The translations under genes and the position numbers were made by a program. The notes beneath the pieces are model-generated. The model had not been told where the DNA came from, searched no databases, and saw nothing but the letters and a program-made list of their open reading frames with translations. Positions 22,373 through 63,338 of a stretch of 64,000 nucleotides of DNA are shown here, piece by piece. The stretch lies in assembly GCA_015490755.1 (NCBI GenBank), contig WFXF01000077.1, forward strand, positions 1-64,000, written 5' to 3'. Each line of letters starts with the position of its first letter. Position 1 is the first letter of the stretch. The stretch is from Gammaproteobacteria bacterium. GTDB taxonomy: Bacteria > Pseudomonadota > Gammaproteobacteria > JAADGQ01.

Positions 22373-22740
22373 GAAGTTGGCTGGGCAGTCGCGGCTTTAT
22401 TACTATTTCGATAGTATTGAAGTGGAGGAAAGTCCGGGCTCCATAGGGTAGAGTGCCAGGTAACGCCTGGGCGGTGTGAGCCGACGGAAAGTGCAACAGA
22501 AAAAATACCGCCGATGGTCCAGAAATGGAAACAGGTAAGGTTGAAATGGTGTGGTAAGAGCGCACCGCGCCAGTGGTAACACTCGGTGGCAAGGTAAACC
22601 CCACTCGGAGCAAGACCAAATAGGGAAACAATGGTGTGGCCCGCACTGTTTCCGGGTAGGTTGCTTGAGGAGCGTGGTGACGCGTATCCCAGATGAATGA
22701 CTGCTCTCGACAGAACCCGGCTTATAGGCCAGCTTCCACT
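22373..22740 (+). ncRNA. rnpB: RNase P RNA (bacterial class A)
   Basis: Conserved blocks GAGGAAAGTCCGGGCTCCATAGGG, GTGCCAGGTAACGCCTGGGCGG, GTGCAACAGA, GGTAAGAGCGCACCGCGC, GGAGCAAGACCAAATAGGG, GATGAATGACTG...CGACAGAACCCGGCTTATAGGCCAGCTTCCACT. Confidence 0.97.
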
Positions 22741-31483: not shown

Positions 31484-31648
31484 CTAGGAGCTTGTCCGAG
31501 AATGGAGTCGTAGCGAGGGAAAGCCGTTTTGAGGCAGATTTGGTGTAAATTTGAGGCGAATAGTTGTTCTATTTAACGAAAATTTACACCAAATATGGCC
31601 GAAATGGATTTTCCGCAGTAGACTTTTCATTCTCGGACAAGCTCCTAG
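31484..31648. repeat. 165-bp nested palindromic element, copy A
   Basis: Perfect 21-bp terminal inverted repeat CTAGGAGCTTGTCCGAGAATG (31484-31504 / 31628-31648) and inner 15-bp IR ATTTGGTGTAAATTT (31538-31552 / 31580-31594); core shared with copy B. Confidence 0.85.
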
Positions 31649-41052: not shown

Positions 41053-41643
41053 TTGGCAGTTTTAAAACAGCAAATCGTTTTAGCATCAAGCTCAATTTAT
41101 CGAAGAGATCTGCTTCGTAAACTGGAGATTAAATTCAGTCGCTATTCACCTGATATTGATGAAACTCCTTTGCTTGATGAGTTACCAGAGGCGATGGTAC
41201 TTCGTTTGGCAGAAAAAAAAGCTCAGGCAGTTGCTGAAAAATACTCTAATGCCTTGGTGATCGCTTCTGATCAGGCGGCAGTCGTGGATGGTCAGATTTT
41301 AGGTAAACCTGGAAATTATGAAAAGGCATTGGAGCAGTTGCTTTTAGTGTCAGGCAAGTCTGTTGTTTTTCATACATCTCTGTGTCTATTTAATAGTGCA
41401 ACGGGGCATATTCAGTCTGTTGTTGAGCCTTTTACGGTACATTTTCGCTCATTGACGACCGATCAAATCGGTAATTATCTGCGGCGAGATAAACCCTATA
41501 ACTGTGCAGGCGCATTCAAGTCTGAAGGGTTTGGTGTTGTGTTATTTGAGAAAATGGAAGGGGATGATCCTAATGCTCTTATTGGGTTACCATTGATTCG
41601 TTTGCGGCAAATGTTGGAACGTGAGGGTATTTATCTTGTTTGA
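41053..41643 (+). CDS. maf: Maf family nucleoside-triphosphate pyrophosphatase
   Basis: IVLASSSIYRRDLLRKLEIKF...DIDETP...VIASDQAAVVDGQILGKPGN; TTG start. Confidence 0.92.
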   Translation: MAVLKQQIVLASSSIYRRDLLRKLEIKFSRYSPDIDETPLLDELPEAMVLRLAEKKAQAVAEKYSNALVIASDQAAVVDGQILGKPGNYEKALEQLLLVSGKSVVFHTSLCLFNSATGHIQSVVEPFTVHFRSLTTDQIGNYLRRDKPYNCAGAFKSEGFGVVLFEKMEGDDPNALIGLPLIRLRQMLEREGIYLV

Positions 41644-41656
41644 TGTTATAAAGTTT

Positions 41657-42337
41657 ATGACCCTAATACTTCGATTCAAAATTTTTCTGACACTTATTGT
41701 AGTGCTATTTAGCTCGAACGCTTTGTCAGCTTCGTCTGAATCGCCTCGTTGGTTTGATATTGAATTGATTGTTTTTGAAAACAGTGATCAGCACTGGATG
41801 GCTTCAGAGCAATGGCCTGATGATTTGGAAGCTCCACCTTTTGATAATGCACTGGATCTGGAGCAGCAAACATTGCTGGTAACAAAGAGGTTGGATGGGG
41901 TTGCAGGGCGCATTTCACGCTCTTCAAAATATAAACTGCTATTGCATACAGGGTGGAGGCAGTCAGTATTATCACGGGATAAAGCCGTGGGGGTCAGGCT
42001 GACAGCAACGGATGGAGACAATAAACTGGATGGAGTAGTAAAAATAAGTGTAGAGCGTTATCTTCATGTTAATTTTAATCTGCTCTATCAAAAATCAGAG
42101 GGGTCGGATCTGATTGACTCTCCTGTGAATATGAAGGCTTACAGCATCAAGGGAAAAAGGCGAATTCGCAGTAAAGAGTTGCACTACTTTGACCACCCGT
42201 TGGTCTCTATGCTGGTACTGGTGACACCTTATAAAGAGAAAGCTGAAAAAGTATCACAGGAAAAAACAGATTTGCCAACAAAAGTATTAACAAAGCCCGA
42301 TGCACTTTCCGATAATAGTGGCCAAATTATTCGCTAG
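41657..42337 (+). CDS. csiV: CsiV family protein
   Basis: Signal peptide MTLILRFKIFLTLIVVLFSSNALS (Met internal to ORF track); RWFDIELIVFENSDQHWMASEQWPDD typical of CsiV; stop codon lies inside repeat copy B. Confidence 0.78.
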   Translation: MTLILRFKIFLTLIVVLFSSNALSASSESPRWFDIELIVFENSDQHWMASEQWPDDLEAPPFDNALDLEQQTLLVTKRLDGVAGRISRSSKYKLLLHTGWRQSVLSRDKAVGVRLTATDGDNKLDGVVKISVERYLHVNFNLLYQKSEGSDLIDSPVNMKAYSIKGKRRIRSKELHYFDHPLVSMLVLVTPYKEKAEKVSQEKTDLPTKVLTKPDALSDNSGQIIR

Positions 42338-42501
42338 AAGGCTGTCGGACTTAGGGAATCGTAGCGAGGCGAGTGGGAAATCAAGGGCAGTTTTTCGGTG
42401 TTTTGAGGCGAATAGTGGATCTATTTGACGAAAAAAACCGGAAAAATGGGGTGATTTCCCACCGCCATAGTAGATTCACCCTAAGTTCGACAGCCTCCTA
42501 G
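42334..42501. repeat. 168-bp nested palindromic element, copy B
   Basis: 23-bp terminal inverted repeats with 2 mismatches (CTAGAAGGCTGTCGGACTTAGGG / CCCTAAGTTCGACAGCCTCCTAG); core TTTGAGGCGAATAGTGGATCTATTTGACGAAAA differs from copy A at 3 of 33 positions. Confidence 0.85.
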
Positions 42502-46690: not shown

Positions 46691-46778
46691 AGAATAAGTT
46701 CCTTTTTTCTATAGGTCGGTTAAAAGATCTTTTTTCTTAAATATTGTCGCAAAAATTTGGCTTCATGTGATTTATGGT

Positions 46779-46866
46779 GGGTAGTGAATGAGTTGTGACT
46801 TGCTGGATTGGTGTCATGTCTCTCGTCAATTACTTTGTCGGGTTACGCTGCGCTAACCCGACCTAC
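46779..46866. repeat. 88-bp dispersed repeat with REP-like palindrome (inverted relative to 62654-62741)
   Basis: Reverse complement of 62654-62741 with 2 mismatches over 88 bp; contains GTCGGGTTACGCTGCGCTAACCCGAC. Confidence 0.9.
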
Positions 46867-46911
46867 GTTACTTAAATGTTGTTAAAAAATTTATTGTGTT
46901 ATTGGTTGTAG

Positions 46912-62421: not shown

Positions 62422-62653
62422 GTATTAGAGTATGGCGTATGTTGCGATGGTTGTGCAATGTTTTAAAAATCAGGTTCTCATAAGAAGGTATAAGGCGGCA
62501 ATCAAATTTCAGTTACTTGTGGTAATGGGGTTTTCATCACGAAATGAATATTGTATTTGTACGATATTTATCCTGAAGCTGATAGGCATTTCTCTGGCTA
62601 TAGATTGAGGTAAGAGTCATGACAAATAGATTCTTTCCGGGTCAAACAGTAGT

Positions 62654-62815
62654 GTAGGTCGGGTTAGCGCAGCGTAACCCGACAAAGTAATTGACGAGAA
62701 ACATGACACCAATCCAGCAAGCCACAACTCATTCACTACCCACATCCGCCGCTAACACCACGAACTTCCTTTCCATCATGTCGGGTTACGCTGCGCTAAC
62801 CCGACCTACGTTACT
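62654..62815. mobile_element. MITE-like unit bounded by inverted REP-like palindromes
   Basis: 30-bp GTAGGTCGGGTTAGCGCAGCGTAACCCGAC at 62654-62683 and its reverse complement at 62780-62809; left 88 bp also present inverted at 46779-46866. Confidence 0.65.
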
Positions 62816-63338
62816 CAACCCTATTAAAACCGAGCTTTCAACTGAATTGCCTCTAAAGTTTTCACTTAGAGTCGCTAGCGACTTATTTAAAGGTCAAAAC
62901 TAAAAAGCCATACTTTAGCCAGGATTTGATTATTAAAAAACTACTAAAAATTAAGCCCGATTGCCCTGGGAGTCTTATGCCTAATCATCTACTAATTTAA
63001 CAATGCCCATAAAATAAACATAGACTAATATCGATATTAATGTAGACTTTGCCGTGGAGTCAGATCATGGGCGGTTCGTGTTGTGCGGCAGTTCTTGATT
63101 CGGCAACCATAGGGGATGTGTGTTGTGTAGTTCGCAACTGCAACCCAGGAGAGTGTTATTTTTAAGTTGGTTACGTTGTTTTTTTAAGGTGTTGACCAAA
63201 TTAAAACTGTTTGAACTTTAATGGTATTGATGATTGCAAATGGAGATCATTCAAATTATCGATTTGTTTTAGTGGCTCAATCACAATACTCTCCATTCCA
63301 CAGAATTTTAAAACAACCACGGCAGGAGTGAACTGACT

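Follow-up and report, generated by a model that had tools for sequence, protein, structure and literature searches.

What keeps the two arms of a long palindromic repeat complementary when the arms differ from copy to copy? The question is raised by two repeats, copy A and copy B, in the window, by which we mean the whole 64,000-nucleotide stretch of gammaproteobacterial DNA that was analysed. Copy B is an imperfect palindrome of 168 bp. A sequence-only reading had set its boundaries at 42334-42501, exactly where we find them, and had suggested that its arms reflect selection on the hairpin or homogenisation of the two ends during propagation, rather than plain decay of a repeat.

Two hairpins with a common core

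The core common to both copies is 33 nt long and identical at 30 positions (91%; 31550-31582 in copy A, 42402-42434 in copy B), and the block TCGTAGCGAGG is present in both, as the sequence-only reading had it. The outer arms of copy B are CTAGAAGGCTGTCGGACTTAGGG and, read from the opposite end, CTAGGAGGCTGTCGAACTTAGGG, where copy A has CTAGGAGCTTGTCCGAGAATGGA. Each copy folds end to end as a single hairpin (-87 kcal/mol, z = -10.4 for copy B; -90 kcal/mol, z = -12.7 for copy A; no shuffle equalled either), which bears out the description of arms that differ and yet pair with themselves. The features are as follows.

42334..42501, + strand: copy B, whole hairpin element, 168 bp; the + strand is the better-folding strand
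42334..42337, no strand: left CTAG of copy B, comprising C, the duplicated TA and G, the element's first base
42498..42501, no strand: right CTAG of copy B, with the second TA target duplicate
42337..42360, + strand: outer stem of copy B, 5′ arm and terminal inverted repeat, B-type, GGAGGCTGTCGGACTTAGGG-like
42474..42498, + strand: outer stem of copy B, 3′ arm and terminal inverted repeat
42361..42367, + strand: conserved internal loop 1 of copy B, 5′ side, GUAGCGA
42467..42473, + strand: conserved internal loop 1 of copy B, 3′ side, AUAGUAG (consensus GCAGUAG)
42368..42404, + strand: middle and upper stems of copy B, 5′ arm, variable and covarying
42432..42466, + strand: middle and upper stems of copy B, 3′ arm, variable and covarying
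42405..42431, + strand: near-invariant apical core of copy B, GAGGCGAATAGTGGATCTATTTGACGA, with tandem-GA internal loop 2, a short helix and the TNNNT loop
31484..31648, + strand: copy A, 165 bp, same family, A-type ends GGAGCTTGTCCGAGAATGG

Copy B lies directly 3′ of an ORF (41621-42337) whose TAG stop falls inside the left CTAG of the element. Judged from the translations, the product of this ORF appears CsiV-like, and that of an ORF about 145 bp downstream of copy B thiamine-diphosphate-enzyme-like. The window also holds a bacterial class A RNase P RNA gene (22373-22740) and three copies, in both orientations, of another repeat family, TGTCGGGTTACGCTGCGCTAACCCGACCTACG (46777-46875, 62648-62743 and 62779-62818).

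A widespread, mobile family

Copy B belongs to a multi-copy family whose range covers many Gammaproteobacteria and extends to at least one further class of Pseudomonadota. A BLAST search with copy B as query matched 38 distinct places (E <= 1.7e-5) in its own genome of 2.63 Mb; four of these copies, copy B included, are B-like (90-100% identical, the close copies at 90-93%) and most others are A-like. Many of the places lie at contig ends. A degenerate pattern for the 27-nt core found copies in other GTDB genomes, at least 103 stretches in total. Carriers among the matches listed include Nitrosomonas, Thiotrichaceae, Chromatiales, Pseudomonas, Marinobacterium, Pseudomaricurvus, Methylobacter, Halieaceae and others; a few contigs come from Bacteroidetes, Aquificaceae and Hyphomicrobiales MAGs and are possibly mis-binned. 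Pseudomonas aestuarii, Motiliproteus sediminis and Marinobacterium rhizophilum are examples of carriers available in culture. Every core inspected sits in the same type of element, and full-length copies are nearly all 165-169 bp. With a covariance model, the element was detected in 90 of 369 Gammaproteobacteria genomes (73 of 272 genera); seven candidates were scored per genome, so per-genome copy numbers are lower bounds. In a sample of the phylum, 46 of 299 genomes carry it, 42 of these lying outside Gammaproteobacteria and mostly in one family. One complete chromosome has roughly 90 copies. Terminal-repeat sites number 70 in one complete genome and 183 in another (0 for a reversed-pattern control). 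Records of E. coli and of phages contain no copy of the element (0 each). Carriage by phages or plasmids was rejected, given these phage records, the lack of any IMG/VR match to the exact core pattern and a single match in plasmid records.

Among 136 copies, the element starts with G in 135 and finishes with C in 135. TA stands outside both ends and is bordered mostly by C and G, which gives CTAG as the preferred target (general form NTAN). Terminal inverted repeats of ∼ 20-22 bp are found at each end. For seven insertions of one genome, the two flanks were joined and searched in two congeners, and six of the joined sequences were matched contiguously across the junction. Three empty sites are clear: GCTTGGT[AGAG-element-CTAC]TTGCC versus GCTTGGTCCAGCTGCC, GGTT[CTGG-element-CTAA]CCA versus GGTTCACTCCA and ATCCC[TTAG-element-CTAG]C versus ATCCCCTAGC in the congener; the remaining contiguous matches align poorly at the junction. 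Insertion positions differ between congeners. The element is thus mobile, as the empty sites indicate. It is short, multi-copy and dispersed, with terminal inverted repeats, target duplication and empty sites, and is a non-autonomous MITE-like mobile element. A TA target duplication best fits the unequal ends, judged from the end statistics and, in part, from the empty sites; a 4-bp footprint is the less likely reading. Our first reading of the ends, a 4-bp CTAG duplication, was abandoned because the TTAG..CTAA and ATAG..CTAG cases favour TA.

The terminal repeats vary between lineages but agree within a genome, where other repeat families carry them too (L171, L187 and L193). This is expected if an enzyme acting in trans recognises the ends. 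The family at these last loci, in one Thiotrichaceae genome, is a distinct small hairpin repeat, ATATAGTGGTTTTCGCAT..., with the same terminal repeats and CTAG sites (L171:259 and 4445, L187:6610, L193:107). A third type of end, TAGACTTGTCCGGGTTTAAAC, accompanies the same core in Thiotrichales BB31 (L110, L116, L128, L144, L197, L204); the flanks there read A-TA..TA-A or T-TA..TA-T, which makes the target an asymmetric ATAA, not CTAG. Elements of genome G123 (L249-L252, L308, L310, L311) often adjoin CCCGGATATTGCACCAAGGCGG, which suggests a second repeat family using the same CTAG sites. In genome G306 (L275-L281) the subterminal arms occur in both arrangements, GGGTGA..ATCACC and GGTGAT..TCACCC, read on the contig strand, not the core strand.

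The enzyme itself was sought from several sides. IS630 elements duplicate TA and prefer CTAG, and MITEs derived from IS630/Tc1-mariner share this target choice. The present element differs from them: genes of the IS630-type DDE_3 family (PF13358) are absent from its own genome, and across genomes DDE_3 and the element are not associated (24 shared, 21.7 expected). An IS630-derived MITE was rejected on these grounds, although the TA duplication fits. For an IS1182-type DDE_Tnp_1_6 transposase, also rejected, there was one sub-threshold match, a truncated transposase on contig C34 that Pfam assigns to DDE_Tnp_1_2 and that lacks the element's ends. At the unpaired terminal repeats checked in two complete genomes (G123 and G357), no autonomous element with the same ends was found among the matches listed. 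In the element's own genome, A-type ends run into non-element sequence at two contig ends (C18:27638-27788 and C32:49413-49562; L049, L052), which are candidate ends of an autonomous partner. A pattern search for such a partner in this genome gave no interior contig, and the C32 end sequence was not found elsewhere in 369 genomes of the class. The C32 end also occurs alone, in truncated form, at C38:10442-10579 (L211).

Internal-deletion derivatives of 63-104 bp that lack the core are found at L132:2448-2543, L133:796-890, L143:5932-6027, L319, L322-L325 and L091:990-1052. They seem to spread in this short form. Several share breakpoints across different loci, and the apical core is therefore seemingly dispensable in cis for movement. 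Given this, the near-invariance of the apical part is the main puzzle.

Paired change and a strand-specific fold

Paired change was followed across dozens of genera. In a MAFFT alignment of 43 copies made from sequence only, RNAalifold gave 66 pairs, 53 of them with compensatory change. In 89 copies aligned to a structural model, and hence fitted to the structure, changes on both sides that keep the pair were found at 60 of the 66 base pairs; 95.3% of cells pair, compared with 39-48% in controls whose partners are displaced by 1-3 columns, and none of 500 shuffles reached any of these measures. A tree-preserving null was then applied (a FastTree phylogeny of the element's own sequences, with the substitutions reconstructed by parsimony placed anew on its branches and a G statistic with APC correction). 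Eighteen column pairs were significant, 16 in the structure, one adjacent to it and one elsewhere; for the unfitted MAFFT alignment, the structure held 10 of the 14 significant pairs. On a tree from the element itself, covariation thus exceeds phylogeny, which is one criterion for a structured RNA. The outer ∼ 20 bp are also the terminal inverted repeats, and paired change there could reflect both ends matching one transposase. Ten of the 16 covarying structural pairs lie outside these repeats, in the middle and upper stems (columns 37-71). Compensatory change along the hairpin across genera is unlike plain decay, in line with the sequence-only reading.

Unpaired loop positions are better conserved than paired ones (0.83 versus 0.74), with many loop residues at 0.97 or above. 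Near-invariant are GUA..GA / GCA..A in loop 1, GA-G-GC / AA-C-GA in loop 2 and the apical helix capped by TNNNT. In our reading both loops are able to form tandem G-A pairs. On the core strand, 411 cells are G-U and 52 are A-C (226 versus 47 without the columns where G-U is the rule); in the 43-row alignment A-C is down to a quarter of the shuffled expectation and G-U stands at three-quarters. Moreover, the + strand gives the more stable fold in 68 of the 69 sequences compared (-92.5 versus -75.7 kcal/mol). Neither the G-U excess nor the strand bias is what cruciform selection, palindrome repair or another process acting alike on both strands would produce, so it is the fold of one strand that is selected. 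Selection acts on this single-stranded fold, as RNA or ssDNA. Of the two causes offered at the outset, selection on the hairpin is upheld by covariation that includes the middle and upper arms, whereas homogenisation or repair alone is disfavoured because the asymmetric internal loops are unrepaired and nearly invariant and G-U far exceeds A-C. No family in Rfam 15 matched at its gathering score, and the weak eukaryotic miRNA matches are attributed to chance; membership of a known RNA family was rejected accordingly.

Proposed mechanism and alternatives

We consider it probable that this is a MITE-like element whose one-strand fold, bound by a putative protein, keeps the arms changing in pairs. 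A DDE-type transposase would recognise the ∼ 20-bp terminal inverted repeats in trans, and where these differ by lineage the outer arms would switch in pairs. The single-stranded form of one strand would fold as a long hairpin that contains two tandem-GA loops and ends in an invariant apical helix with a TNNNT cap; we slightly favour a transcribed RNA over ssDNA as the folded strand. A putative protein would bind this fold, and lineages that retain it intact would keep multiplying, which would leave the arms free to change only in pairs.

It is possible, but in our view rather unlikely, that the functional fold is ssDNA exposed in replication or transposition and recognised strand-specifically by a recombinase, like integron attC or IS200/REP hairpins. 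G-T pairs are tolerated in DNA hairpins too, and selection on one strand combined with random gene orientation fits a DNA step at the level of the element better than a host-gene UTR. However, the TA/CTAG duplication and the ∼ 20-bp inverted repeats point to a double-strand DDE enzyme, not to HUH or tyrosine recombinases; the element has no GTAG-tagged REP structure and no such recombinase is linked to it.

A plain MITE with a functionless fold, in which the terminal repeats track the resident transposase and template switching occasionally repairs the palindrome, is improbable. It would account for outer arms that are terminal repeats of distinct lineage types, for the ends shared by different repeat families in one genome and for the spread of the short core-less forms. 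It does not account for the covarying pairs beyond the terminal repeats, and repair would perfect palindromes, yet the mismatched GA loops are nearly invariant. The 8:1 excess of G-U over A-C also requires a strand-specific cause.

Gene context bears on a third alternative, a host-beneficial regulatory RNA, i.e. a 3′-UTR hairpin that stabilises upstream mRNAs or is processed from them, as proposed for YPAL and NEMIS; we regard this as the least probable of the three. By simple ORF calling, without a gene caller, 87 of 88 copies lie outside long ORFs and genes running toward the element end at a median distance of 24 bp from it; copy B itself overlaps the stop codon of the gene upstream. The orientation of the element relative to neighbouring genes is random (51:46) and therefore does not favour transcription together with the host gene; a role as transcription terminator or UTR was rejected for this reason. 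Only one strand has the selected fold, but both orientations are equally frequent near gene ends, and intergenic copies near stops in random orientation argue against a one-strand host 3′-UTR function and for an element-level property. Positions are unconserved between congeners, and CTAG targets together with gene avoidance account for the 3′ bias.

Relation to known repeats

Among known repeats the element comes nearest to hairpin MITEs, and the precedent most like it in size, placement and conservation of the fold is YPAL/RU-2: this repeat is ∼ 167-168 bp long, intergenic and mobile with empty sites, forms a long hairpin and may influence upstream transcripts, and a stem-loop survey gave YPAL an RNAz P of 1.00 and a conserved-structure score of +++ (PMC2229807, PMC2759123, PMC2267715). 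YPAL/RU-2 has been reviewed as lacking terminal TA, with target duplications of 3-26 bp, and is reported from Yersinia/Erwinia only. Compared by eye, the published RU-2 sequence lacks GAGGCGAATAG, TCGTAGCGAGG and the loops and terminal repeats of our element; the sequences are unrelated by this comparison and membership was rejected. Correia/NEMIS, ERIC/RU-1 and RUP are short, with TA termini, target duplication and hairpin transcripts (PMC2229807). ERIC is 127 bp and Correia 107 or 155 bp with 24-bp terminal repeats, and their host groups differ from those of the present element, whose fold, unlike that of Correia, ERIC or RUP, is conserved over at least 73 genera. REP/REPIN sequences with RAYT are also palindromic, dispersed and intergenic. 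REPs are 20-40 bp and GTAG- or CGTC-tagged (PMC3733652); at 167 bp and with a target duplication at CTAG, our element falls outside their definition. A search of 5.4 million open-access papers for its ends and core gave nothing evidently relevant, subscription papers and ISfinder being outside its scope.

Implications

What is new here is a very widespread hairpin MITE with no Rfam entry and an unexplained conserved fold. Typically, a hairpin MITE has been described in a single genus and regarded as debris. In the present case compensatory change maintains a single 167-nt fold in roughly one in four of the gammaproteobacterial genomes sampled, as well as in another class. An annotation model is gained for a repeat at which many draft assemblies are broken, the one analysed here included. 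The question of why palindromic MITEs keep their structure, whether for transposition, RNA function or protein binding, becomes directly testable. A more far-reaching version, which we advance tentatively and think unlikely, is a selfish element of two Pseudomonadota classes with its own structured ncRNA or ssDNA fold serving propagation and a dedicated putative protein at the tandem-GA loops. If true, this would be a new kind of transposition, in which RNA or ssDNA assists elements that encode no protein.
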